Assembly: GCA_023261505.1 (NCBI GenBank)
Contig: JAHFOV010000014.1
Location: forward strand, 1-41,378
Origin: Planctomycetota bacterium
GTDB taxonomy: Bacteria > Planctomycetota > Brocadiia > Brocadiales > Bathyanammoxibiaceae
DNA: 41,378 bases
Direction: 5' to 3'
Made by a program: the position numbers and the translations under genes. The first letter of the stretch is position 1. Every line of letters starts with the position of its first letter. This document shows positions 16,207 to 41,378 of the stretch, in pieces. The notes beneath the pieces are model-generated. The model did no database searches and was not told where the DNA came from. It saw nothing but the letters and a program-made list of their open reading frames with translations.

Positions 16207-17616
16207 ATGTCCCTGTCAGAACCAGCCATCTTTAAGATATACTTTTTTACTGAAGAGGAGTGGGCCTCTTGTGGCCGGGCCGCTGAGGAGGTAAAAAAGG
16301 CGTTAAATCTTGAGCCAGGGGATAAGAACCCCGTCGACTCACTCCGGAACTTTTTGGATGAGCTGGCCAGACAGAACGTTCTAACCGGTGATGGCCTTCT
16401 GGATACCCCTTGTGAATTTGCCTCTAACACGCACCAGCTTAAAGTAAGATACTATCCAAGAGAGCAGGTAGGGGCAGGTTTTACACCTGCCCCCACAGAA
16501 GGGATATTCGTCCTTGCGGTGGGCATGAATTCTAAATCGGCTGATGTAATACCGGGGTGGCAGGAACTTGAAAGGAAATTTCCCGCAAATCTTCCCAATG
16601 GCCTCCTGGACCTTATCACGATTTATTATGCTATCTCTGATAAGGAGGTTATGGACCGTGAGGTTATAGAACTTGCCAAACCCATGTTCCCTGAGGTCTC
16701 TCGGGTGGATTTACAAAGGGCACTGAAAAGGGCACCACTTCATTGTGGAAACCTTTATCAGCTAGTCGGCCTAAGGCGGGTTGCGAGCTACTTCCTCTTT
16801 TCCTCTAAAGAAAAGGAGTTAGAGGCCAGCAGCTTTGCCACCCTTTCCCTGCCCCTGTTAAACATTTACCTGTATGGCGGTGACGTGAGAATCCAGGATA
16901 AAGAGGGCAGGCTACTGGCTGCAAGAAGAGACGTGAAAGAGGTCTCAGAAACGATAAAAAATAAACTGAATCACTATTCCAGCTTAGGATTCGGCGCAAT
17001 TACGAGTGAAGAAGAAAGGATGGACGTCTTTAAGCTTGCAAAGGATTTGTGGCTCCTCAACAACAACGCCCGCCAGATGCTTAATCTCCTTGAGACTGTA
17101 AACATCGCCCTTTACAACTTCAGGAATCTGAAGAATAGGTTGCTTGCTCCTGGCGCGGAAGAAATCTTTAGCCAGAAGGAGAGGCTGCTGGAATTACAGA
17201 AGGTTCGGCTACGGGCCGATGCTGCTTACCTGCACAATACCTTTGAGTCGGGCAGGGTGGTGCTGGACTCCATTGAAGACCACATGGAACTGGAATATGC
17301 CAAGGAATTGAAGGAGTCTAACAAGAAGTCTCTTAACCTACAATCAGCCGCTTTCCTTGTGGAATTTGCTATTGTCTTTTATTACTTCCTGGGGAGCTGG
17401 CATTACATCATGGGAGAAAACTTTTATAAATTCTCATCTTCTGCTCACCTGGCCTGTGCCTCCATTATAGCCTCCCTGCTTTGTGCAGGCACGCATCTAT
17501 TTGCCAAGTGGCGCTTTACTAAAGAGAAGTCCTATTTATACGCCCTCCTGGGTCTAATGTTTCTATTCCTTTTGACTATAGTTTATATAGTTGTAACAGC
17601 AATTTCTTTTACTTGA
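16207..17616 (+). CDS. Hypothetical protein with soluble N-terminal region and about three C-terminal TM helices
   Basis: 469 aa; hydrophobic segments AAFLVEFAIVFYYFLGSWHYI, LACASIIASLLCAGTHLFA, YALLGLMFLFLLTIVYIVVTAI after a predicted long helix; no family recognised. Confidence 0.85.
   Translation: MSLSEPAIFKIYFFTEEEWASCGRAAEEVKKALNLEPGDKNPVDSLRNFLDELARQNVLTGDGLLDTPCEFASNTHQLKVRYYPREQVGAGFTPAPTEGIFVLAVGMNSKSADVIPGWQELERKFPANLPNGLLDLITIYYAISDKEVMDREVIELAKPMFPEVSRVDLQRALKRAPLHCGNLYQLVGLRRVASYFLFSSKEKELEASSFATLSLPLLNIYLYGGDVRIQDKEGRLLAARRDVKEVSETIKNKLNHYSSLGFGAITSEEERMDVFKLAKDLWLLNNNARQMLNLLETVNIALYNFRNLKNRLLAPGAEEIFSQKERLLELQKVRLRADAAYLHNTFESGRVVLDSIEDHMELEYAKELKESNKKSLNLQSAAFLVEFAIVFYYFLGSWHYIMGENFYKFSSSAHLACASIIASLLCAGTHLFAKWRFTKEKSYLYALLGLMFLFLLTIVYIVVTAISFT
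16468..16496. repeat. Palindromic repeat embedded in the coding sequence of the 16207 gene
   Basis: GTAGGGGCAGGT-TTTAC-ACCTGCCCCCAC, 12-bp arms with one mismatch; encodes VGAGFTPAPT. Confidence 0.75.
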
Positions 17617-26031: not shown

Positions 26032-27207
26032 TTATTCTTTCCGGGGGCTACCTATTGCATAGACGTAGTGGTCGTTAGCCCCAAAGTATACGGTACCGTC
26101 AGGGTCTATTGCTGGAGAGGATTCTATCCAGTCCTCGGTCTTAAAACTCCACATTAGCTGGCCCTCTGGGCTTAAGGCATAAAGCCTACCTACCCGTTGC
26201 CCACCTTCATCCAGTTCTCCAGTACCAAAATAAACTGAACCATCTACACCCAGGGCCGGGGAGGACTCAATCCAGCCCCCTGTCTTGTAGGACCACTTTA
26301 AGCTCCCCTTTGAACCCACAGCATAAAAATTCTTGTCGTAAGAGCCGAAGTACAGCGAGCCGTCTGAGCCAAGAGCTATGGAACTCTGAATAGCCTTTCC
26401 TGTCTGAATCCTCAACCTAACTTCACCTTCAGGTGTAAAACCATATACCCTGCCATTCTCAGAACCTATATAAACCTGCCCTTTGGAATCCACGGAAGGT
26501 GATGAAAAAGAGGAATAAATATCCCTACCGTAACGCCTAGTCCATTTAAGGCCCCCGTTGGTGTCAAATGCGAAAAGGAGTCCTACATTTGTACCGATAA
26601 AGACTGTGCCGTCCAGCCCCAGGCATGGGCTGGAGGTGATGGGGCTGCGTGTATCGTATTTCCAGAGGCCCTTCCCTTCGGCGCTAAGGCAGTAAAGTTT
26701 ACCATCGCTTGAACCGATATAGATAGTTCCCTCGGGACCAATAACAGGAGAAGAGAGTACGCTGTTACCTGTTTTGTAACCCCACAGTAGTTTGCCATCC
26801 GGCCTTAAGGCGTAAAGGTTGCCGTCTCTTGAGCCGATGTAAATATTACCGGCCTGGTCAATGGCAGGAGAGGAAGTTATACCCTTTTGTGCAGAAAAAA
26901 CCCACTTCTTCTGACCGTCTGGTGTGAGGGCATAAAGCTGACCATCCTCAGAACCTATATAGATAGTGCCATCTGCACTAATGGCAGGAGATGAGGTAAC
27001 TTTATCTGTTGTAAGAAATCGCCATTTAAGAGTTCCATCTTTTGCGCCTTGATAAATACTCTGGCCAGAATGCGAGGGATTATGCCTGAACATCGGCCAG
27101 GGGGCATCAGCCAGCGCCTCTCTGCCAGCAGTGTTGACCTGCCAAATCATAAATACTATAAAACTGACCAAAAAATACCTCAGTATGATATGGGAAGATC
27201 GTGTCAT
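26032..27207 (-). CDS. Exported PQQ-like beta-propeller repeat protein
   Basis: Signal peptide; tandem SSPAI..DGTIYIGS.DG.LYAL.PDG..KW.. blades. Confidence 0.92.
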   Translation of the reverse strand: MTRSSHIILRYFLVSFIVFMIWQVNTAGREALADAPWPMFRHNPSHSGQSIYQGAKDGTLKWRFLTTDKVTSSPAISADGTIYIGSEDGQLYALTPDGQKKWVFSAQKGITSSPAIDQAGNIYIGSRDGNLYALRPDGKLLWGYKTGNSVLSSPVIGPEGTIYIGSSDGKLYCLSAEGKGLWKYDTRSPITSSPCLGLDGTVFIGTNVGLLFAFDTNGGLKWTRRYGRDIYSSFSSPSVDSKGQVYIGSENGRVYGFTPEGEVRLRIQTGKAIQSSIALGSDGSLYFGSYDKNFYAVGSKGSLKWSYKTGGWIESSPALGVDGSVYFGTGELDEGGQRVGRLYALSPEGQLMWSFKTEDWIESSPAIDPDGTVYFGANDHYVYAIGSPRKE

Positions 27208-27228
27208 CAGTTATTTCCTTTTCCTCTA

Positions 27229-28449
27229 TTATTCCAGGGCATATAGCCCGTCGCTAGAACCTATGTAAAGTACTCCTTCTGGAGAAATAGCTGGGGAGGA
27301 ATGGATAGGCCCAGCGGTTGAGAAACTCCACCTAAGCTCTCCCCACCTCCCTATAACATAAATTCTACCATCCCATGAGCCCACATAGACGTTGCCTTCT
27401 GGGTCTACCACAGGGGAAGAGGTAATGGCCCCTGCCGTCTGATATTTCCAAAGAAGGGGTCCATCCTTACTTAGAGCGTAAAGACCACCATCGTTACAGC
27501 CAAAGTAAATGATGCCGTCTGCCCCGAGGGCAGGAGAAGAGTCAATCCATCCGCCTAAGGCGGATACCCTTCCCCTCCACTTCTCTTTCCCCTGAGGAGT
27601 GAGGGCAAAGAAAAATCCGCTACTTGAGCCAACATATATAATGCTTTCATCATCTATAGCCGGGGAAGAAGTTACTGCACCACCTGTGTTAAATTTCCAT
27701 CTTAATGCCCCCAATGGGCTGAGGGCGTAAAGGTATCCGTCATCAGAACCAAAAAATATTGTACCCTCAAGGTCAATGGCGGGAGAAGATTCTATATATT
27801 TCCTCGTAGTAAAGATCCACTTCACTTTTCCTGTACTATCTATGGAGTACAAATTATAGTTATCAGTACCAACATACAATCCACCATCTTGGTCTAAGGC
27901 GGGAGAGGAGGATACCCTTCCAGGTATCTGGGTCAGCCACTTCTGGTGGCCCTGGCCGTCCAGAGCAAGGAGCTTGCCTCCCCAGGAACAGCAATAAATA
28001 TCTCCTTTGGGTGTTAAGACTGGCGTTGAATATATCTTGTCTTCTATTGAGAAGCTCCACAGGAGAACTCCTTGGGGGTTGACCGCATAAAGTTTACCGT
28101 CCAAACAGCCGAAATAAATCGTTCCATCCTGACCTATCACTGGGGAGGAGTCCACAGGTTTGGGCGTCTTAAAATGCCATTTCAAGACCCCTTTAGAAGG
28201 GCCTGGGAAAGGGCTAAGGCCTGTACGCCTCTCATCATGGTGAAAAAAGGGCCAAGGAGACTCTTTTTGAGATAAGGCGGTATCGCCACCAGAGAGGGAT
28301 CCCTGGCTTAAACAAAGCATGCCAAAGAGTGTAAACAGGGTCACCGTGAATAGAATACAGGTAACGGGGAAACGTTTTTTTACCTGTCTCCTGTTTCCTG
28401 TCACCCGTATCCTTTCTCCGGCTGCTAGCTTGACATATTGCTGAAGCAC
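27229..28449 (-). CDS. Exported PQQ-like beta-propeller repeat protein (paralogue)
   Basis: Same blade motif (SSPVIGQDGTIYFGCLDGKLYAVNPQGVLLWSF) repeated; adjacent to paralogue. Confidence 0.92.
   Translation of the reverse strand: MLQQYVKLAAGERIRVTGNRRQVKKRFPVTCILFTVTLFTLFGMLCLSQGSLSGGDTALSQKESPWPFFHHDERRTGLSPFPGPSKGVLKWHFKTPKPVDSSPVIGQDGTIYFGCLDGKLYAVNPQGVLLWSFSIEDKIYSTPVLTPKGDIYCCSWGGKLLALDGQGHQKWLTQIPGRVSSSPALDQDGGLYVGTDNYNLYSIDSTGKVKWIFTTRKYIESSPAIDLEGTIFFGSDDGYLYALSPLGALRWKFNTGGAVTSSPAIDDESIIYVGSSSGFFFALTPQGKEKWRGRVSALGGWIDSSPALGADGIIYFGCNDGGLYALSKDGPLLWKYQTAGAITSSPVVDPEGNVYVGSWDGRIYVIGRWGELRWSFSTAGPIHSSPAISPEGVLYIGSSDGLYALE
27549..27565. repeat. Palindrome ATCCGCCTAAGGCGGAT inside the propeller coding sequence
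   Basis: 8-bp perfect arms; encodes extra RVSALGG residues before the GWIDSSPALG blade strand. Confidence 0.6.
28358..28386. repeat. Hairpin within the 5' end of the 27229-28449 gene
   Basis: CAGGTAA...TTACCTG arms, flanked by CTGTCTCCTGTTTCCTGTCACCCGT direct near-repeats. Confidence 0.45.
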
Positions 28450-28492: not shown

Positions 28493-29524
28493 ATGAAAAA
28501 AGGCACATTTATTTCTAGGTATTATGTATATTATACAGTTCTTTTTTGCATAGGATACTACGGGACAGAGGGTTTATGCAACACCACTGCAGTCGGAGCT
28601 GACATAAATGGAGTCCCACGGCTGAGTGTCCCTGAGAGTTCCCATTCCTTTGGTCAGATATACCGTGGGGAGAAGGTCCAGCACCGCTTTTTACTGAAGA
28701 ACATCGGGGATGGAGAGCTAGAGATACGAAAGGTCAGGGCTTCCTGCGGGTGTACCGCGGCCGAACCCTCCCGAAAAATCGTTCCACCTGGAGGTGAGGC
28801 TTACATTGAGGCAACCTTTAATTCTCACAATTTTGTAGGTAAAGTAACCAAAACGGTGATGGTAGACACCAATGACCCGGCAGAACCTACCTACACCCTT
28901 ACCCTGGAGGCCTTAATCCTGGAGGAGGTGGTGGCCGATCCTTCCAGACTGATTCTTGGACAGATAAGGCAAGGAGAGGGAAAGAATATTAACGTAGTTG
29001 TAAAATCGCCCACGGGCTTGGACCTTAAGGTCCTTTCTGCCCAATCCTCTTCCAAGGCATTGCAGGTAGCCTCCACAGAGAAAGAGGCAGACGGCGTGTA
29101 TGCTGTAAAATTAGAGGTAAAAAAAGATTCTCCCATCGGCAGGTTCAGTGGAGACCTGGTAGTGCAGACTAACAGCCAGCGGCAACCCACTATTACTGTC
29201 CCTTTCTACGGAGAGGTTGTTAGCGACATAGCGGTCTTCCCCCTGCAGCTTTCTTTCGGTCTCGTCAAGAAAGGCACTGAAGCGGTAAGACTGGTTCTTG
29301 TTACCTTTTACAACCAGGAGGTCAAGCTGGCCAAGGTTGAGGTAGAATCTGAGGTTTTCAGCCTCCGCGAAAACTCGCAAAGTGAAGGGGGTTTTTGCCG
29401 TTTAGATATAGTCCTTAACAAAGAGGCCCCCGCAGGCAGGCTATCAGGGAACCTGAAGATTTATACGACAAGTAAGTCCCAACCGCTAATTACTATTCCC
29501 CTCTCTGCAACGGTAAAAGAATGA
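28493..29524 (+). CDS. DUF1573 Ig-like domain exported protein
   Basis: HSFGQIYRGEKVQHRFLLKNIGDGELEIRKVRASCGCTAAEPSRKIVPPGGEAYIEATFNS: canonical DUF1573 with CGCT; repeated sandwich domains. Confidence 0.9.
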   Translation: MKKGTFISRYYVYYTVLFCIGYYGTEGLCNTTAVGADINGVPRLSVPESSHSFGQIYRGEKVQHRFLLKNIGDGELEIRKVRASCGCTAAEPSRKIVPPGGEAYIEATFNSHNFVGKVTKTVMVDTNDPAEPTYTLTLEALILEEVVADPSRLILGQIRQGEGKNINVVVKSPTGLDLKVLSAQSSSKALQVASTEKEADGVYAVKLEVKKDSPIGRFSGDLVVQTNSQRQPTITVPFYGEVVSDIAVFPLQLSFGLVKKGTEAVRLVLVTFYNQEVKLAKVEVESEVFSLRENSQSEGGFCRLDIVLNKEAPAGRLSGNLKIYTTSKSQPLITIPLSATVKE

Positions 29525-31191
29525 TGTTCTGGGTGTTCCTGCTCCTTAGCTGCTTCGTTGGTTCACTGCAAGCTCAGGATATGCCCTTCCAGCATTCTGT
29601 TATCGACACATCGCAGGAATTACAGAGGCATAATCCCCCTCAGTCCCCCTTTATTAAAGGGGGAAATAGGGGGATTATTAATATCTGTATTATCTTCAGC
29701 GGCGAGGAAAGGGGTTATCTAGAACCCTGCGGCTGCGCGAAGCCTTCATTGGGAGGTATAGCCAAGAGGCATACCTTCTTGAAATCTCTCCCTGAGCCAC
29801 GGGTGGCTGTAAGCCTTGGTGACCTGGCAGGTCATGACGGTACCACCACTGGCATCTTGAGACAGAAAGAGTTACAGGCAGAAACCCTCGCCCAGGCCCT
29901 GAAGATTATGAATTATTCTATACATAATCTTGGCGAGAGAGATTTAGAAATGGGATTGGATGTCCTGGCTTACCTCTTTCCTCCTGGAGCAGTTCCCCTG
30001 CTCTATTCAAATATCAAGCTTGCAAGCCCTTTTATTGAAGTAGTCCCTTATAAAATCCTTGAGGTAAGGGCAACCCTCGCGGTTGCCCAAGATAATGAGG
30101 CAGGGGCAAACCTTATGGAAAAAAATCGGACAGGGGAGAGCCCTGCCCCTACGTTGAAAATTGGATTCCTGGGAATCCTCTCCCCCACCCTCCTTGGGCC
30201 ACCACCTACGGGGGTGGAAATAACTCCACCTGCTGAGGCCCTTCCACCACTAATAAAAGAATTAAAAGATAAAGTAGATGTCCTGATACTCCTCTCCCAT
30301 GCCAGTATGGAAGAGTCACTTAGGCTAGCAAGGGATTTTCCCGAGTTTCATATTGTCGCCTCAGGACACGGGATAGACCATCCTATAACCGTAAAGGAGG
30401 GCAATACCTGGGTTGTTAATCCAGGCAATAAGGGTAAGCACTTGGTGTTGTACCGCTATAATCCACCTTTATCCCCCTTTGATAAAAATACTTCACCAAT
30501 ATCCCCCTTTTATAAAGGGGGAGAAAGGGGGATTAATGGCACGGGAGTAGTAGAGACTGTAACCCTGGACGAACGCTTTAATGACTCAGATACAATGCTC
30601 AACCTGCTTGATAATTATCAGCAGAGGCTCAAGGATGAGAATCTCCTCTGGCAAGTCGAAAAACTCCCCCTCCCTGAACAAACCAGCTATGTCGGTAGCA
30701 GCGCTTGTAAAGCATGTCACCCCGCCGTGTTCCAGCACTGGGGCTCAACCCTCCATGCCATGGCCTACGAAACATTGCTTAAGGTGGGGCGGGCCTTTGA
30801 TCCCGAGTGTGTGGCCTGCCACGTCGTAGGTCTCAATTACAGTACCGGCTTTCAATCCAGGGAGAAAAGCCCTGACCTTATAGGTGTAGGCTGTGAGGCC
30901 TGTCACGGTCCCGGTAGCCTCCATATCGGCAGCATTCATATGGACAGACCTTCTGGTCTGTCCAGTACCCAAATTCCCTCTCCCTCGATGGGAGAGGGTA
31001 GGGAGAGGGTGAAAGAGACAGACAGGTCTAAAGATTTGTCCCTGCAAAAGGACGGCTACGGCAAGGTCTATCCTGAAGACTGCCACGGATGCCATGACCC
31101 AGAACATAGCCCCCCTTTCAAATTCGAATCCTGCTGGGAAAGGATAAAACATCCAGTGGAAACCCCGATATACCCAAACGCAATTAAGTAG
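29521..31191 (+). CDS. UshA-like metallophosphatase-type domain fused to multihaem cytochrome c (c554-like)
   Basis: GYLEPCGCAKPSLGGIAKR N-terminal motif; four CXXCH motifs (CKACH, CVACH, CEACH, CHGCH); signal peptide; ATGA overlap with DUF1573 gene. Confidence 0.85.
   Translation: MMFWVFLLLSCFVGSLQAQDMPFQHSVIDTSQELQRHNPPQSPFIKGGNRGIINICIIFSGEERGYLEPCGCAKPSLGGIAKRHTFLKSLPEPRVAVSLGDLAGHDGTTTGILRQKELQAETLAQALKIMNYSIHNLGERDLEMGLDVLAYLFPPGAVPLLYSNIKLASPFIEVVPYKILEVRATLAVAQDNEAGANLMEKNRTGESPAPTLKIGFLGILSPTLLGPPPTGVEITPPAEALPPLIKELKDKVDVLILLSHASMEESLRLARDFPEFHIVASGHGIDHPITVKEGNTWVVNPGNKGKHLVLYRYNPPLSPFDKNTSPISPFYKGGERGINGTGVVETVTLDERFNDSDTMLNLLDNYQQRLKDENLLWQVEKLPLPEQTSYVGSSACKACHPAVFQHWGSTLHAMAYETLLKVGRAFDPECVACHVVGLNYSTGFQSREKSPDLIGVGCEACHGPGSLHIGSIHMDRPSGLSSTQIPSPSMGEGRERVKETDRSKDLSLQKDGYGKVYPEDCHGCHDPEHSPPFKFESCWERIKHPVETPIYPNAIK
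29631..29677. repeat. In-frame palindromic repeat element (CCCCCTTTA/TAAAGGGGG type)
   Basis: TAATCCCCCTCAGTCCCCCTTTATTAAAGGGGGAAATAGGGGGATTA; encodes NPPQSPFIKGGNRGI. Confidence 0.9.
30064..30152. repeat. In-frame GTARGGGC...GCCCCTAC bounded repeat element
   Basis: Terminal inverted GTAAGGGC/GCCCCTAC, internal hairpins GGGCAACC-CTCGC-GGTTGCCC and CAGGG-GAGAG-CCCTG; same architecture as 32806-32869. Confidence 0.75.
30459..30535. repeat. In-frame palindromic repeat element (second copy, partially duplicated)
   Basis: TAATCCACCTTTATCCCCCTTTGATAAAAATACTTCACCAATATCCCCCTTTTATAAAGGGGGAGAAAGGGGGATTA; encodes NPPLSPFDKNTSPISPFYKGGERGI. Confidence 0.9.
30941..30964. repeat. In-frame inverted repeat TGGACAGACC-TTCT-GGTCTGTCCA
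   Basis: 10-bp perfect arms, 4-nt loop. Confidence 0.8.
30976..31013. repeat. In-frame CCCTCTCCC...GGGAGAGGG repeat
   Basis: CCCTCTCCC-TCGAT-GGGAGAGGG followed by TAGGGAGAGGGTGAA; encodes IPSPSMGEGRERVKE. Confidence 0.85.
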
Positions 31192-31226
31192 ACAGTCGAG
31201 AGAATATAGTAGATAGGAGAAAAATA

Positions 31227-31263
31227 TAATCCCCCTTAGTCCCCCTTTAGAAAAGAGGGATTA
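31227..31263. repeat. Intergenic copy of the CCCCCTTTA-type repeat
   Basis: TAATCCCCCTTAGTCCCCCTTTAGAAAAGAGGGATTA. Confidence 0.8.
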
Positions 31264-31308
31264 TAAAATTTGTGATTTATAAGCGCTTTGCCATTTCAGC
31301 AAAAAAAT

Positions 31309-31336
31309 TTGAAATCCATAAAAAACTTGTTATATT
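31309..31336 (+). promoter_or_regulatory. Putative sigma70 promoter for the glcD-like gene
   Basis: TTGAAA-N16-TATATT; supports the downstream start ATG 31394. Confidence 0.4.
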
Positions 31337-31342
31337 GAATTT

Positions 31343-32791
31343 ATGTTCAGAGGAATATTATCTAAGGGGGTACAACCTTCTAAAGAAAGTAAGATGAACG
31401 CAGACGCCCTGGATGCCCTTTATAAGGCTCTAGGGAAAGAGAAGGTTATCACCAATATAGAGGATAGGATTTGTTACTCCCACGATGCCACTTCTATGGG
31501 AGTGGCCCTGCCACCCAGGCAAAAGGCCATTGCAGATGTGGTAATAAAGGCCTCCAGCACCGAGGAGGTCTCTGCTGTAATAAAGGTAGCTGATAAATAT
31601 ACCATCCCTGTATACCCCTGCGGGGCGCGTTCCGGGCTTTCTGGGGGTTCAGTACCTTTATATGGAGGTATTGTTCTGGATACTACAAGGATGAACCGTA
31701 TCCTGGAGATAAATCCTCAGGACCTCATGGCCACCGTGGAGCCAGGGGTTGTCAATAAGCGATTCCAGGATGAGGTAGCTAAATATAAACTATACTATCC
31801 GCCATTCCCTGGCAGTGCCGAATTTTCTACGTTAGGGGGAAATGTAGCCGAGTGTTCAGGTGGGATGGCAGGACTTAAGTACGGAGTTACAAGGGATTAC
31901 GTCCTTTCCCTGGAGGTGGTTTTGCCTGACGGCAGTGTGATAAATACCGGGCGCAGGACCTTGAGGAGTGTGGCAGGTTATGACCTTACCAGGCTATTCG
32001 TAGGCTCAGAGGGTACGCTGGGCGTATTCACTAAGATTACAGTAAAACTCATTCCACTACCAGAAAAAGTGGAGACCCTTTTGGCCTACTTCAAGGACCC
32101 TGAGGAGGCCGCAGATGCGGCTGATGCGATAATATTAGGGCAGCGGGTAATACCCAAGACACTGGAGTTTGTGGACTCCATTTGTATAAATTCTATAAGG
32201 GGCTATGGGGGCGTAGAGATTCCTCAAAAGGCTAAGGCCTTTCTCTTAATAGATGTGGATGGAAAAGAATCTGAGGTAGGGAAGGACCTCGCAGCTGTGG
32301 AAAGGGCTTGCAAAGAGAACGGGGCCTTCGAGATTATTGTGGCTAAGACAGCAAAAGAAAGTGAAGCCTTATGGGCTGTCAGGAAGTCAATCTCTCCTGC
32401 CCTCTTTAAGGTAGCAGGTAGGAAGCTCAACGAAGATATTTGTGTCCCCAGAAGTAAGATAAAAGAAATACTGAGAGAACTCTACTCCATCGGTGAGAGA
32501 TACTCCCTGGCTACCGCCTGTTTTGGCCATATAGGGGATGGCAACGTCCATGTGAATTTTCTATATGGCTTTGAAGAGGAAGACGAAAAGAAGGTGGGGG
32601 AGATGGTGCGGCACATGTTAAAAAAGGTAGTTTCCGTCGGGGGTACAATAACCGGGGAACATGGCGTAGGCATTGCCAAGGCAGAATTTTTACCTTTAGA
32701 GGTCCCCCCTCAAGAGCTCCAGTTCATGAAGTCCCTTAAGAACTTCCTGGACCCCAAGGGCATAATGAACCCTGGAAAGATTTTTATCTGA
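31343..32791 (+). CDS. FAD-linked oxidase, glycolate/D-lactate dehydrogenase GlcD family
   Basis: YPCGARSGLSGGSVPLYGGIVLDTTRMNRI FAD-binding PP-loop, ATACFGHIGDGNVHVN, GTITGEHGVGIAKAEFL; start probably 31394 (MNADALDAL). Confidence 0.94.
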   Translation: MFRGILSKGVQPSKESKMNADALDALYKALGKEKVITNIEDRICYSHDATSMGVALPPRQKAIADVVIKASSTEEVSAVIKVADKYTIPVYPCGARSGLSGGSVPLYGGIVLDTTRMNRILEINPQDLMATVEPGVVNKRFQDEVAKYKLYYPPFPGSAEFSTLGGNVAECSGGMAGLKYGVTRDYVLSLEVVLPDGSVINTGRRTLRSVAGYDLTRLFVGSEGTLGVFTKITVKLIPLPEKVETLLAYFKDPEEAADAADAIILGQRVIPKTLEFVDSICINSIRGYGGVEIPQKAKAFLLIDVDGKESEVGKDLAAVERACKENGAFEIIVAKTAKESEALWAVRKSISPALFKVAGRKLNEDICVPRSKIKEILRELYSIGERYSLATACFGHIGDGNVHVNFLYGFEEEDEKKVGEMVRHMLKKVVSVGGTITGEHGVGIAKAEFLPLEVPPQELQFMKSLKNFLDPKGIMNPGKIFI

Positions 32792-32805
32792 ATGCCAGAA
32801 AAATT

Positions 32806-32869
32806 GTAGGGGCGAACCTATATGTTCGCCCTGGTAATTTATTGGGCAGACACGTGGGTCTGCCCCTAC
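32806..32869. repeat. Dispersed palindromic element with two hairpins and terminal inverted repeats
   Basis: GTAGGGGC...GCCCCTAC ends; hairpins GGCGAAC.../GTTCGCC and GGGCAGAC-ACGTGG-GTCTGCCC. Confidence 0.85.
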
Positions 32870-32920
32870 GCGGCACAGGCCGAGCGACCGCAATCTAAAA
32901 TTGGTGCGGCCACAAAGCCT

Positions 32921-33697
32921 CTAGTCTGCAGAAGCCTCAGAGGCTAATTCTATCCTGATAATATCTGGAGGGGGAATATACTGGAAAGTAAAAACCTCTT
33001 CGCCCAGGCCTGGATGGTTCTCGTCTCCCCTTATTGACTTTTCAAGGCGTCTTTCAACCTCTGACTTGCTTAATTTTTTCCACCAGGAAGACTTCGGCCA
33101 TTGATTTCTGTCTGCGCCCGCCTGAGGCTGTTTCCCCTTTAAGGCCTTTTTAAGCCCCTTTTTATCCTTTAGCAAAGGCGGAAGATTCTGAAACTTTGAG
33201 AGGTCGGTGCGCACATATACTACCACCCCCCGGGAGCTAAGGTGAAGGTCACATATCCCATTGCAGGAGTAACTCACCCGATTGATGGTTAACTCTGCCA
33301 GGTCTGAGTCCTCGCACATCCCTACTCTCTTTCTAAAGGTCTCGCAAAGCCACTGCAGGGCCTCCAGCCTCCTGGTCTTCTTCCTGGCGAGGTAAAGAGC
33401 CTGGTGGTAATTAAAGGTCAGCTTAAGTCCGTCTGAGGTGGATAACCTTTCCCCATGTTCCAGCAGGATTAGTTCAGCCTGTTCTACTATCTTTTGATCT
33501 CCTAGCTTTCTGGCGGAGGAAAGGACATGGTGGACTGTGGACATCAGGTTATCCTCCCCCTCCATCCCCGGAGCTAACCCTTTTTCCCCAATCTTGCGAA
33601 TGTGATTGGAGCTGGTGCCATAAAAGAGAATAGGCGGGGTGGGGTTCTCTTTCCAGGTCTTTAACCAACTGTAACTGGGGTCAAAGGTGTCAGGCAT
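32921..33697 (-). CDS. Hypothetical protein, putative ADP-ribosyltransferase-like (ART) fold
   Basis: LFYGTSSNHIRKIGEKGLAPG, LKLTFNYHQALYLARKKT, GVVVYVRTDL, EEVFTFQYIPPPDIIRIEL: order and spacing resemble ART/KptA-type folds. Family not confirmed. Confidence 0.45.
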   Translation of the reverse strand: MPDTFDPSYSWLKTWKENPTPPILFYGTSSNHIRKIGEKGLAPGMEGEDNLMSTVHHVLSSARKLGDQKIVEQAELILLEHGERLSTSDGLKLTFNYHQALYLARKKTRRLEALQWLCETFRKRVGMCEDSDLAELTINRVSYSCNGICDLHLSSRGVVVYVRTDLSKFQNLPPLLKDKKGLKKALKGKQPQAGADRNQWPKSSWWKKLSKSEVERRLEKSIRGDENHPGLGEEVFTFQYIPPPDIIRIELASEASAD

Positions 33698-36596: not shown

Positions 36597-38708
36597 ATGA
36601 AGCTATGTCAAATGGAATCTTCGGGGGCAAAGTCAAAAAGATACCAATTTAGCGTTATTCTTATACATTGCGTCATTTTTTTCATTTGTCTAATCTATGT
36701 GCCTGCCTTGTCCTTCGCCGAGATTAAAACAGGCGGACTTACCGCTTATCCCTATGCTTCGGTTGGATTAGGGCCTAATCTGTTAACTAATCCCAGTTTT
36801 GAGGTGATAGACACCGGAACTGGCAAGCCCTCTGGTTGGGCTAGCCTCGGGTTTACCTTAGACTCCACCGTGGCTCATACGGGCTCAAAAAGCTATCGCG
36901 TTAAGGATGCAAACTTGACTTCTGGTTCCGAGTATGTACAGCAAACGGTGTCCTTAAAGAAAGGCACATATCGCATAAGCGCCTGGGTAAAGTTATATAA
37001 GGTGGATGGGGGTAGTGGTAAGGGCGTAAGGCTTGCCCTGCGCCCAAGTTACAACCAAGTGGGTGGCGCTGGCATTACACCGACTATAAATGGAACAAGT
37101 GACTGGCGGTATCTTGAAGCCAGGAATATTATTATTACTCAAGATACGACTGCAAAATTTAGAATCGAGACCTACCAAAATCCCACTGGTACTGCCTGGT
37201 TTGATGACGTAGTCCTTCAGGAAGAACTCCCATTACCAATGGAGGTCTTTTGCCTTTATCCTAACTATCGTGGAATGCTCTTTGGTGACCAATCTCAGAT
37301 TGCACGTTTTAATATCAAAACAAACCCACCCGCTGGGACTAGTGCATCAGATTATTACATTCGTATCATGGCGACAGATGAGACAACAAGTAGTGTGGTC
37401 ATACAGAGTACCTTATATCCATCCCAGAAACCCGAAGGCGATGAGGCAACACTCAATTGTACGTCTTTTATAAATGACCGTACTTATCTAGTAAAGTTTT
37501 TCCTTACCAAAAAGTCAGGCAATGCTACAGTCTATGAACACCCAGCCTACAGGATTTCAAAACTTGCCGGCACTAATCGTTCTTCAATGACTATGTCGTT
37601 TGATAAATATAACCGTTTTCTCGTACGTGGAAAACCGACGTTTATTCTCGGGGTTTACGATTCAGGCATGGCCTATACAGATGACGAAACTCTATGGGAA
37701 ACGCAACAATTTGGCACCTGGAGACGGCTCTTTGAGATTCCTATCAATTTATACCTGAATTACACGTATGCACTAGCACCAGTTTCAGCAATGACTTCTA
37801 TGATGAATGTGTTGCAAAGGCACGGGGTTCTCTATCTACAGTCTGGACAGGCTAACCAATGGAGACTTTCTAGTGCTCTCATTACCACCAGTGACAGCTA
37901 CGCAACGGCCCTGGCCTCTCACACTGGATTTGCAGGGGTTTACACCATGGACGAAGCTTATGCTCAACTGGCCCCCGCAGTATTTGAACAGTACGTGCGC
38001 CTTAAAAAACTTGACCCTGATGGGATAACCTTTGGTGCTTCAAACAGGCTCGAAGAACTCTTTTACTGGCGGGATACGATTGATGTTCTTTCAACAGACC
38101 CGTATCCGCTCTATGGAGCAGAGCCACCAGAAGGCTATCCACTCAATAAAGTTGCCGATTGGACAAGTGCTTTGCGTAATACAGTAAAATCCAGCCGCCC
38201 CTTCTGCGCTGTACTTCAATTTTTCCAATCTACAAGCAATTCACGCTGGCCTACCACAGGTGAGTTACGCAATATGAGCTATATGGCGATTGCGGAAGGT
38301 GCAAACGGATTATTTTACTGGAGCCTAGGGGACAGGGCATTGGCAAATATATGCAACCCAAGCACATCCTGGTGCCCTACAAAGGAGGAATATTTTGCGC
38401 GTCTTAAGCCCGTACTGAACGAGCTTAAGGGGCTTGAGCCTGCACTTACCAGCATCGACACCCCTAATTATCTTGTAGGCAACAATAACCCCTCTGCTGT
38501 TCGTACACGGGTCAAATATGCTAATGGCAAAGGGTATCTGATTGCCTATAATTACACTAATACTCCAACCGGTGCAACCTTCACCTGGAGGCGAGCCCCT
38601 TCAAATATTGAAGTTTATAATGAATCGCGCACGATTACGCCTTCTGGAAGCTCTTTTTCGGATACCTTTGGTAAGTATGAGGCACATGTATATGTAATTT
38701 CTGAGTAA
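36597..38708 (+). CDS. Secreted protein: CBM4/9-like domain + Ig-like domain + TIM-barrel glycosidase-like domain
   Basis: Signal peptide ending VPALSFA; LGPNLLTNPSFEVIDTGTGKPSGWASLG...WFDDVVLQEE jelly-roll; FLVRGKPTFILGVYDSG, GVYTMDEAY, STDPYPLYG, GANGLFYWSLGD barrel motifs; C-terminal beta domain. Confidence 0.75.
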   Translation: MKLCQMESSGAKSKRYQFSVILIHCVIFFICLIYVPALSFAEIKTGGLTAYPYASVGLGPNLLTNPSFEVIDTGTGKPSGWASLGFTLDSTVAHTGSKSYRVKDANLTSGSEYVQQTVSLKKGTYRISAWVKLYKVDGGSGKGVRLALRPSYNQVGGAGITPTINGTSDWRYLEARNIIITQDTTAKFRIETYQNPTGTAWFDDVVLQEELPLPMEVFCLYPNYRGMLFGDQSQIARFNIKTNPPAGTSASDYYIRIMATDETTSSVVIQSTLYPSQKPEGDEATLNCTSFINDRTYLVKFFLTKKSGNATVYEHPAYRISKLAGTNRSSMTMSFDKYNRFLVRGKPTFILGVYDSGMAYTDDETLWETQQFGTWRRLFEIPINLYLNYTYALAPVSAMTSMMNVLQRHGVLYLQSGQANQWRLSSALITTSDSYATALASHTGFAGVYTMDEAYAQLAPAVFEQYVRLKKLDPDGITFGASNRLEELFYWRDTIDVLSTDPYPLYGAEPPEGYPLNKVADWTSALRNTVKSSRPFCAVLQFFQSTSNSRWPTTGELRNMSYMAIAEGANGLFYWSLGDRALANICNPSTSWCPTKEEYFARLKPVLNELKGLEPALTSIDTPNYLVGNNNPSAVRTRVKYANGKGYLIAYNYTNTPTGATFTWRRAPSNIEVYNESRTITPSGSSFSDTFGKYEAHVYVISE

Positions 38709-38850
38709 AGGCATCCACTTAAGGCAAAACGTGGTTAAATTCTTAATCTATATTAGCACTTTGCCCGTGAAGGTTTAGCTAATGAAGCTAAACAGGTATG
38801 TCCCTCTCTATTAAATATGGTGGCAGACTGCTAGAGTTGGTGGTTAGCCA

Positions 38851-41378
38851 ATGAAGCAATATCAAGACCTAAAATCTTTGGTCATAAAATCAAAAAAATA
38901 CAATGTTGTAGTTGTTGTTGAGTATTCCATTCTATTTCTTCTCTTTGTTGGGCTTATCTGCGTGCCTGCCTTGGCCTCCGCCCAAGTTAATTTAGGACCC
39001 AATCTGTTAAATAATACCAGTTTTGAGTCGGTAGACATAGTAACAAATGCCCCCTATTCTTGGTACAGCATAGGGTTTGTCTCAGACTCTACCGTAGCCC
39101 ATACAGGGTCAAATAGTTATCGCGTTAAGGATGCGAACTTGACGACCACCACCTATGAGCTCGCGTCTCAAAGAGTGTCCTTAAAAAAAGGCACATATCG
39201 TATAAGCGCCTGGGTAAAATTACAGAATGTGGGCGGTGGAAACTCCGGTGTAAGGCTTGCCCTGCGCCCAGGTTACGCCCCAGTGGGCAGTGCTGGTGTT
39301 ACAGCGACTATAAATGGAACAAGTGATTGGCAGTATATCGAAGTCCAGAATATTAATATTACTCAAGATACTAAGGCAGACTTTAGACTTGAGACCTACT
39401 ACAATCCAACTGGAACTATCTGGCTTGATGATGTAGAACTTCACGAAGAACTGCAGTCTCCTCCCCCACCCTCCACCGCGAGTAAACCTGGCGGGCTTAC
39501 TGCCTATCCTTATGCTTCGGTTCAATTAGGCCCTAATCTGTCAACTAATACCAGCTTCGAGACGATAGATTCAAAAACAGGTACTCCCTCTGGCTGGAGC
39601 GGCCTCGGTTTTACCTTGGACTCTACCGTAGCTCATACGGGCTCAAATAGCTATCGTGTTAAGGATGCGAACTTGACGAGTACCTCTGAGCTCGCATCTC
39701 AAACAGTATCCTTAAAGACAGGCACATATCGCATAAGCGCCTGGATAAAGTTAAACAATGTGGGTTCAGGTAATAAAGGTGTGAGGCTTGCCCTTCGCCC
39801 AACTTACAACCAGGTAGGTGGTGCTGGTATTACAGCGACTATAAATGGAACAAGTGACTGGCGGTATCTTGAAGCCAGGAATATTATTATTACTCAAGAT
39901 ACTAAGGCCTACTTTAGACTTGAGACCTACGGAAATCCAACTGGAACTGTCTGGTTTGATGATGTAGAACTTCATGAAGAACTCCCACTACCAATAGAGG
40001 TCTTTTGCCTTTACCCTAACTATCGTGGGATGCTCTTTGACGACCAACCTCAGATTGCACGTTTTAACATAAAAATGAACCCACCCAATGGGACTAGTGT
40101 AGCCGATTATTCTATACATATTACGACAACAGATGAGACAAGCAATAGTGTAGAATTCCAACCGGATTTTAATCCCTCACAGGCCGAAAATGTTATAGAG
40201 GTCGATTGCTCAAGTTTCATAAATGATAACACTTATCTAGTAAGGTTTTATCTTGTCAGAAACTCTGACCAGGCTATAATCTACGAACACCCTGCCTACA
40301 GGATTGCAAAACTTGCTGGCACTAATCGCTCTTCAATGACCATGTCATTTGACGTAAATAACCGTTTTCTTGTCCGCGGAAGCCCGACGTTTATCCTTGG
40401 GGTTTATGATTCCGGCATGGCCTATACAGATAACGAAACTACATGGGAAACGCAGCAATTTGGTGCATGGAGGCGTCTCTTTGAGATTCCCATTAATTTC
40501 TACCTCAATTACATGTATGCACTAGCACCAGTTTCATCGATGACTTCTATGATGAATGTGTTGCAAAGGTACGGGGTTCTCTATCTACAGTCTGGACAGG
40601 CTAACCAATGGAGACTTTCTAGTGCCCTCATTACCACCGATGACAGCTACGCAACGGCCCTGGCCTCGCACACGGGATTCGCAGGGGTTTACACTATGGA
40701 CGAAGCTTATGCTCAACTGGCCCCAGCGGTATTTGAAAGTAACTTACGCCTTAAAAACCTTGACCCAGATGGAGTAACCTTCGCAGCCGCAAGCAGAATC
40801 CTTGAACTCCCCTATTGGCGAGAGGTGGTTGACATCCTTTCAACGGACCCATATCCACTTTATGGGGCAGAGCCAGCACAAGGCTATCCACTTAATAAAG
40901 TTGCCGATTGGACTAGAGAGTGCAACAATGTATTGAAATCCAGCCGTCCATTCTGCACGGTTATCCAATTTTTCCAATCTACAAGCAATTCACGCTGGCC
41001 TACCACGGGTGAGTTACGCAATATGAGCTATATGGCGATTGCGGAAGGTGCAAACGGATTATTCTACTGGAGTTTGGGGAACAGCGCATTGGCCGTTACA
41101 TGCAGCTCAAGCACGTCCTGGTGCCCTACAAAGGAGGACTATTTTGGGCGTCTTAAGAGCGTAATGAATGAGCTTAATGGGCTTAATCCCGCACTTACCA
41201 GCATCGACACCCCTAATTATCTTGTAGGCAACAATAACCCCTCTGCTGTTCGTACACGGGTCAAATATGCTAATGGCAAAGGGTATCTGATTGCCTACAA
41301 TTACACCAATACGCCAACCGGTGCAACCTTTACCTGGAGACAAGCCCCTACAAATATTGAAATTTATAATGAATCGCG
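38851..41378 (+). CDS. Secreted paralogue with two CBM-like domains, truncated by window end (not in ORF track)
   Basis: Manual translation from ATG 38851 (MKQYQDLKSLVIKSKKYNVVVVVEYSILFLLFVGLICVPALASAQVN...) stays open for 842 codons to the window end; same domains as the upstream gene with a duplicated N-terminal module. Confidence 0.9.
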   Translation, partial: MKQYQDLKSLVIKSKKYNVVVVVEYSILFLLFVGLICVPALASAQVNLGPNLLNNTSFESVDIVTNAPYSWYSIGFVSDSTVAHTGSNSYRVKDANLTTTTYELASQRVSLKKGTYRISAWVKLQNVGGGNSGVRLALRPGYAPVGSAGVTATINGTSDWQYIEVQNINITQDTKADFRLETYYNPTGTIWLDDVELHEELQSPPPPSTASKPGGLTAYPYASVQLGPNLSTNTSFETIDSKTGTPSGWSGLGFTLDSTVAHTGSNSYRVKDANLTSTSELASQTVSLKTGTYRISAWIKLNNVGSGNKGVRLALRPTYNQVGGAGITATINGTSDWRYLEARNIIITQDTKAYFRLETYGNPTGTVWFDDVELHEELPLPIEVFCLYPNYRGMLFDDQPQIARFNIKMNPPNGTSVADYSIHITTTDETSNSVEFQPDFNPSQAENVIEVDCSSFINDNTYLVRFYLVRNSDQAIIYEHPAYRIAKLAGTNRSSMTMSFDVNNRFLVRGSPTFILGVYDSGMAYTDNETTWETQQFGAWRRLFEIPINFYLNYMYALAPVSSMTSMMNVLQRYGVLYLQSGQANQWRLSSALITTDDSYATALASHTGFAGVYTMDEAYAQLAPAVFESNLRLKNLDPDGVTFAAASRILELPYWREVVDILSTDPYPLYGAEPAQGYPLNKVADWTRECNNVLKSSRPFCTVIQFFQSTSNSRWPTTGELRNMSYMAIAEGANGLFYWSLGNSALAVTCSSSTSWCPTKEDYFGRLKSVMNELNGLNPALTSIDTPNYLVGNNNPSAVRTRVKYANGKGYLIAYNYTNTPTGATFTWRQAPTNIEIYNES

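Follow-up and report, generated by a model that had tools for sequence, protein, structure and literature searches.

We identified a gene for an UshA-like protein with a tetrahaem cytochrome part whose predicted loops have, with high probability, taken up several short mobile palindromes without interruption of the reading frame; the product would still be a working, probably exported protein. The gene lies in a stretch of 41,378 nucleotides (referred to below as the window), which is one contig (C101) of a 2.51-Mb draft genome in 147 contigs. Its inserts comprise A-type palindromes, GTAG-tagged REP elements, and a palindrome of a further type, E (Table 1), and close relatives of the species carry different palindromes at several of the same sites.

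The host gene and its palindromic inserts

The host gene is an intact open reading frame of 556 codons with no internal stop. The best NCBIfam match of its product is NF041198 (UshA_like_PCGU), and the score of 214.5 bits is under the curated cut-off of 275; the protein counts as a relative and not as a certified member of that family. It shares with this UshA-like (seleno)protein family the PCG motif (PCGC in the host protein) and the 5'-nucleotidase fold (CD73/UshA) but has a Cys where PCGU has selenocysteine and is fused to a tetrahaem cytochrome part. The best PDB folds for the UshA-like part are CD73/UshA 5'-nucleotidases (E-values down to 2e-18), and PF13435 (tetrahaem cytochrome c554-like) matches the protein with 50.6 bits (gathering score, 20.8; E-value, 3.8e-13). 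Homologs were found in 80 of the 98 related genomes searched; an initial scan of contigs with a single protein as the query did not find the relatives, which an alignment-based scan recovered. The homolog in a genome of the same family (G001) matches record JASEHG010000091.1 ("Candidatus Brocadiaceae bacterium isolate Yes70-17") over its start and all of the sequence shown, and further homologs of the same order are Ca. Scalindua and Brocadiaceae records. Judged by these matches, the window genome probably belongs to the order Brocadiales (anammox planctomycetes). The Cys and His residues of the four CXXCH motifs are invariant across 30 homologs, and the PCGC residues are also kept. With the inserts removed, dN/dS is 0.13 to 0.15 relative to three relatives, which indicates that the gene is constrained by purifying selection; its synonymous sites are near saturation (dS of ~1.15 to 1.33).

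Table 1. Host gene, haem motifs, and palindromic elements in the window
Feature	Position	Strand	Reading or location
GTAG hairpin	16468..16493		In frame, read as VGAGFTPAP; in the gene for a 469-aa protein (16207-17616)
Host gene, UshA-like (5'-nucleotidase fold) and tetrahaem cytochrome c554-type	29521..31191	+	Intact ORF, 556 aa
A, A-type palindrome	29630..29678		Read as NPPQSPFIKGGNRGI; N-terminal stretch past the signal peptide
B, GTAG-tagged compound REP element (GTAAGGGC...GCCCCTAC)	30064..30152		Read as RATLAVAQDNEAGANLMEKNRTGESPAPT; predicted beta-strand-to-beta-strand loop
C, A-type palindrome with an extra partial left half	30459..30535		Read as NPPLSPFDKNTSPISPFYKGGERGI; predicted beta-strand-to-beta-strand loop
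Haem motif 1	30706..30720	+	CKACH, residue 396
Haem motif 2	30808..30822	+	CVACH, residue 430
Haem motif 3	30892..30906	+	CEACH, residue 458
D, left hairpin (GGACAGACC..GGTCTGTCC) of a GTAG-type pair	30942..30963		
E palindrome (CCCTCTCCC...GGGAGAGGG...GGGAGAGGGTGA)	30976..31012		Read as IPSPSMGEGRERVKE; nested between the halves of D
D, right half (GACAGGTCTAAAGATTTGTCCCTGC)	31021..31045		
Haem motif 4	31081..31095	+	CHGCH, residue 521; D/E sits between motifs 3 and 4
Degenerate A-type copy	31227..31262		Directly downstream of the host gene
GTAG-tagged REP pair	32806..32869		Intergenic

An alignment with homologs revealed four additional stretches in the window protein, corresponding to A, B, C, and D with E inside it. 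An earlier note, made from the letters of the window, had listed in-frame palindromic segments of several families in this gene and had proposed such an alignment as a test; the four stretches hold every repeat that it listed, and all inserted segments are missing from the homologs of the same family and the same order. A is a near-perfect double-stem palindrome of 49 nucleotides with a strong predicted RNA fold (-32.6 kcal/mol; z, -4.6). The left end of B reads GTAAGGGC and its right end CCCCTAC. D and E had been described as separate elements, and both are present, but E is nested in D, a two-hairpin element spanning 30942-31045 whose right half (hairpin arms GACAGGTCT..TTGTCCCTGC) had been missed. 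The left tag of D is lost (CATAT) and its right tag reads CCCTGC, whereas in sister copies at other places in the genome GTAG...CTAC is intact; intact pairs of the D kind exist at other loci. The predicted peptides spanning the inserts include NPPQSPF..., ATLAVAQDNEAGANL..., and NPPLSPFDK....

The placement of the inserts between haem motifs and domains, as the earlier note had it, agrees with both the alignment and an AlphaFold2 model (mean pLDDT of 81), in which every insert falls in a loop between secondary-structure elements of the predicted core. The stretches of A, C, and D/E mostly have pLDDT values of <50 and that of B has values of ~70 to 77; three of the four insert regions are predicted to be disordered.

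Related copies outside the gene, which had also been pointed out, are real (the degenerate A-type copy and the intergenic GTAG pair in Table 1). A further GTAG hairpin is read in frame in a gene whose 469-residue product has no Pfam match. No Rfam or known noncoding RNA family matched in 29000-33000. Neighboring A copies as ends of an insertion sequence were ruled out at another locus (L056), where the genes between them encode an FmdE-like and a TPR protein and no transposases. The window also contains repeats of other kinds. A 63-nucleotide unit, present in eight copies with a spacing of 120 nucleotides in places, encodes beta-propeller (PQQ_2-like) repeats in two adjoining genes (26693-28150), and two adjoining genes with carbohydrate-binding-like domains (36597-41376) have common segments with 64 to 88% DNA identity, suggesting tandem duplication.

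Copy number and reading frame of the palindromes

The core pattern of A matched 56 times per strand in the 2.51-Mb genome, and the reversed control pattern had no match. Repeats were counted in a 0.73-Mb sample of the genome, of which 0.48 Mb had been picked regardless of repeats. This sample holds 62 strict GTAG hairpins (0 to 2 in shuffles), the high copy number that characterizes GTAG-tagged REPs, together with 55 copies of TCCGCCTNAGGCGGA and 29 A cores (none of either in shuffles). E is the least secure family, since its exact-type pattern showed no excess over the reversed control (7 versus 10); about eight E relatives, each weak individually, are recognizable in the sample, and a profile search points to a GC-richer E family. 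The multicopy state on which the earlier note had made its interpretation depend is clear for the A and GTAG types and less certain for E.

Genes in the sample were called with an approximate, home-made procedure (635 genes; 85% coding). The unselected part contained 14 strict GTAG units between genes, 12 within genes, and 1 at a gene end. With 85% of the sequence coding, this comparison of intergenic and in-gene copies, which had also been proposed, makes the units ~6- to 7-fold rarer per kilobase in genes. The tag of in-gene GTAG elements was read in phase 0 in 39 cases, in phase 1 in 18, and in phase 2 in none; in phase 2, its TAG would stop translation. Full GTAG elements have a length of 1 mod 3 in 12 of 17 cases within genes and in 10 of 13 between genes, so that frame compatibility may be partly built into the elements. 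The counts of strict GTAG units are from a stricter detector, because a lax one took in ordinary protein motifs, such as the response-regulator motif VGADDYITKPF (site 52) and site 53.

With a laxer detector that gave a few false positives, at least one element was found in 52 of the 635 genes and, when the count is limited to the unselected part, in 24 of 414; in-frame repeats thus occur in roughly 6 to 8% of the sampled genes. The elements measure 26 to 110 bp and are mostly GTAG tagged or of A type, and a search for simple target-site duplications at single GTAG elements revealed no obvious one. The carriers include genes for a V/A-type ATP synthase alpha/beta-family subunit, chorismate synthase, PurH, a CobB/CobQ-type synthase, a menaquinone biosynthesis protein, and radical SAM proteins. 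Eleven genes carry two or more elements, compared to ~3 under a Poisson distribution. At a uniform rate, a gene of the length of the host gene should carry 0.12 to 0.18 elements, and five were observed (probability per gene of at least five, 2e-7 to 1.4e-6, for a gene that was chosen as extreme and with rates that vary among genes). Tolerance or attraction must therefore differ strongly among genes. The host gene lies at the extreme end of a pattern that extends across the genome and is not a unique case.

Palindromes at shared sites differ between relatives

Three sites of the host gene (A, B, and D) carry different palindromes in relatives, suggesting that some loops are repeated landing sites. 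At site A, the corresponding stretch of the relative G007 contains TCCGCCTTAGGCGGA. Site B is occupied by a GTAGGGGCAGGTC... compound in G001 and by another GTAG compound in G007 and is empty in G005, and site D holds one GGGACAGGTC-type hairpin in both G001 and G007 and a CCGAATT repeat in G005.

Same-site turnover of palindromes is general and extends beyond the host gene. The comparison covered sampled stretches of the genomes, and part of the same-site calls were made by eye. For 18 in-gene elements of the window genome, both flanks could be mapped in the G005 sample (0.78 Mb); the strict detector finds a GTAG hairpin at 5 of these sites, and inspection by eye finds one at 7, while any repeat of the tested kinds occurred at only 2 of 341 random coding positions. 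Mapping the in-gene elements of G005 in the reverse direction revealed a different palindrome at 7 of 14 sites and none at 6, a count that is not independent of the forward one since the two sets overlap. An identical inner palindrome was not found at any shared site in this two-way comparison. For example, CACGGCGCGCCGTG (or a one-base variant) corresponds to CACGTTGCAACGTG at the same site in two genes, and a TCCGCC palindrome corresponds to a B-type compound at a shared site. Several GTAG-GTAG pairs have a base-exact 3' junction, a 5' junction shifted by whole codons, and inner palindromes that differ on both arms; the arms are perfectly or near perfectly paired in both species despite synonymous sites near saturation. 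The inner palindromes are species typical: with each palindrome counted once, GTAGGGGCACGTTGCAACGTGCCCCTAC occurs ~16 times in the G005 sample and twice in the sample of the window genome, and A cores occur 2 and 29 times, respectively, the latter sample being enriched for A.

Several further loci show repeats of these or other kinds. In an FeS reductase-like gene (L050, 3842-5929, in the window species), the A palindrome of the window species is matched at roughly the same position by GTAG hairpins in G005 and G007, which differ from each other, and the gene has more GTAG elements at other positions. Other repeats found at the same sites in relatives (at three loci and in the G005 and G001 samples) are GTTCAAGGGTTCAAGG, GCAGTAGGCAGTAAGC-like sequences, CCGAATTCCG, and TCCTGAGCGTAGCGAAGGA, with few copies each. 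The N terminus of a homolog from another family of the order (G028) starts with MRKSYRSRGVLQYAPT, apparently the translation of a GTAG palindrome.

RAYT-like transposases

The genome encodes three RAYT-like transposases (C40:2339-2905, C118:8110-8664, and C14:3728-4297). The C40 protein matches NF047646 (REP_Tyr_transpos) in two stretches flanking its own insert (E-value, 6.7e-19; score of 68.2 versus a cut-off of 80). The C40 and C118 genes carry in-frame REPs shortly past the MPNHxHGIII motif and more REPs upstream; the C14 gene has no REP at that position. The left half of B closely resembles the REP inside the C40 gene, and REPs of the B class occur both upstream of and in frame within that gene, as in a cognate REP/RAYT pair. 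Judged by their sequences, B and D appear to be REP-type elements of the GTAG-tagged superfamily. The presence of resident RAYTs with their own REPs and the likeness of the C40 REP to B favor RAYT-driven spread as the most likely source of both elements.

Origin and turnover of the inserts

In the reading that we favor, the many short elements of this genome (A type, GTAG-tagged REPs, TCCGCC palindromes, and E type) would insert widely. Copies surviving in genes would be those that keep the frame, avoid a stop, and hit a tolerant loop, and since only such copies would be retained, tolerant loops of tolerant genes would accumulate elements. One element may land within another, as E would have done in D, and B and D would most likely have been spread by the resident RAYTs. 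The element of a loop may later be replaced, or its inner palindrome may be rewritten on both arms jointly; after either event, the palindrome found at a given site would differ from species to species. We infer this mode of turnover, and the neutrality of the inserted peptides, from the comparisons above.

The earlier note had suggested tolerated linkers or active domestication, of which the former fits the data. Under domestication, the inserted peptides would be retained because they are useful, for instance in linking domains or spacing haems, as might be suggested, in a conserved gene, by inserts that separate domains or stand between haems 3 and 4. This is improbable: the peptides are not conserved between species, the sites in close relatives are either empty (B in G005) or filled with other sequences (B and D in G001 and G007), no shared site has kept the same inner palindrome, and most of the insert regions are predicted to be disordered. 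Decay of the gene or an assembly artifact might be invoked for an unusual insert load in a draft genome of many contigs, but the intact frame, the low dN/dS, the kept haem and PCGC residues, and inserts at the same sites in independently assembled relatives make either scarcely credible. It also seems unlikely that the palindromes are kept as mRNA or DNA hairpins with the peptide as a by-product. The strong predicted fold of A and the well-paired arms in both species would suit such a function, with either selection or template switching from arm to arm maintaining the pairing, and passages in two studies (PMC8604942, PMC8794818) describe how template switching can homogenize the arms of inverted repeats. 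However, sites are empty in some relatives, the species-typical, multicopy inner sequences fit the spread of copies better than drift at each site, and no Rfam family matched.

A more serious alternative, to which we give somewhat less than an even chance, is that the same-site differences reflect only independent insertions into a few tolerant loops and that existing inserts are never exchanged or rewritten. A change of superfamily at a site (A versus GTAG hairpins in the FeS reductase-like gene; TCCGCC versus a B-type compound) requires new insertion or full replacement, and the excess of genes with two or more elements indicates that tolerance varies. The GTAG-GTAG pairs with base-exact 3' junctions and both arms changed argue against this as the sole process and fit a single old insert with later rewriting or exchange. 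Probably both processes occur, i.e., new insertion into a few tolerant loops and exchange or rewriting of inherited inserts. More tentatively, and with doubt prevailing, we propose that certain loops of proteins in this anammox-order lineage serve as long-lived sites of exchange, in which a landed palindrome is repeatedly overwritten in frame by the palindrome dominant in the species, through REP/RAYT-driven replacement or conversion. The loop sequences of housekeeping enzymes would then evolve in concert with the mobile-element population rather than with the gene.

If the favored reading of tolerated, mobile inserts is right, tiny mobile elements write short stretches of many proteins, including housekeeping enzymes, and rewrite them in each species at fixed sites. 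Such inserts would be natural tests of the tolerance of protein loops to insertion and marked sites at which the spread and change of REPs could be studied through strain comparison. Strings such as VGAGxKPAPT, NPPxSPFxKGG, and SASGG in protein databases could then be insertion scars and not conserved motifs.

Comparison with known systems

The earlier note had likened the inserts to Rickettsia palindromic elements (RPEs). The behavior is similar, in that palindromic repeats of multiple families are read in frame in many unrelated genes, but, set against RPEs of ~150 bp as summarized in PMC10969869, the elements here are shorter, mostly GTAG tagged or of A type, and found in Planctomycetota; B and D appear to fit the GTAG-tagged REP superfamily better than a place among RPE homologs. 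A search of openly licensed papers for the repeat-peptide strings yielded nothing relevant.

With GTAG-tagged REP/RAYT systems (PMC3733652; PMC3686654), the elements share stem-loops of 20 to 40 bp, occurrence as singles and inverted pairs, a high copy number, and RAYT genes in the genome with adjacent REPs; the GTAG tag is intact in sister copies of B and D and partly lost in the D element of the host gene. In-frame GTAG REPs inside genes, genes with two insertions, and two Xanthomonas species whose recB genes carry different REPs at roughly the same position have been reported (PMC3733652), as have orthologous RAYTs at which one REP class has taken the place of another ("orthoswitch") (PMC3686654). 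Unlike known GTAG REPs, the elements described here include several unrelated kinds in one gene and even at one site as well as one element nested in another within a coding insert, show general same-site turnover, and occur in frame within RAYT genes. Earlier reports may exist, but among openly licensed papers these features seem to be new.
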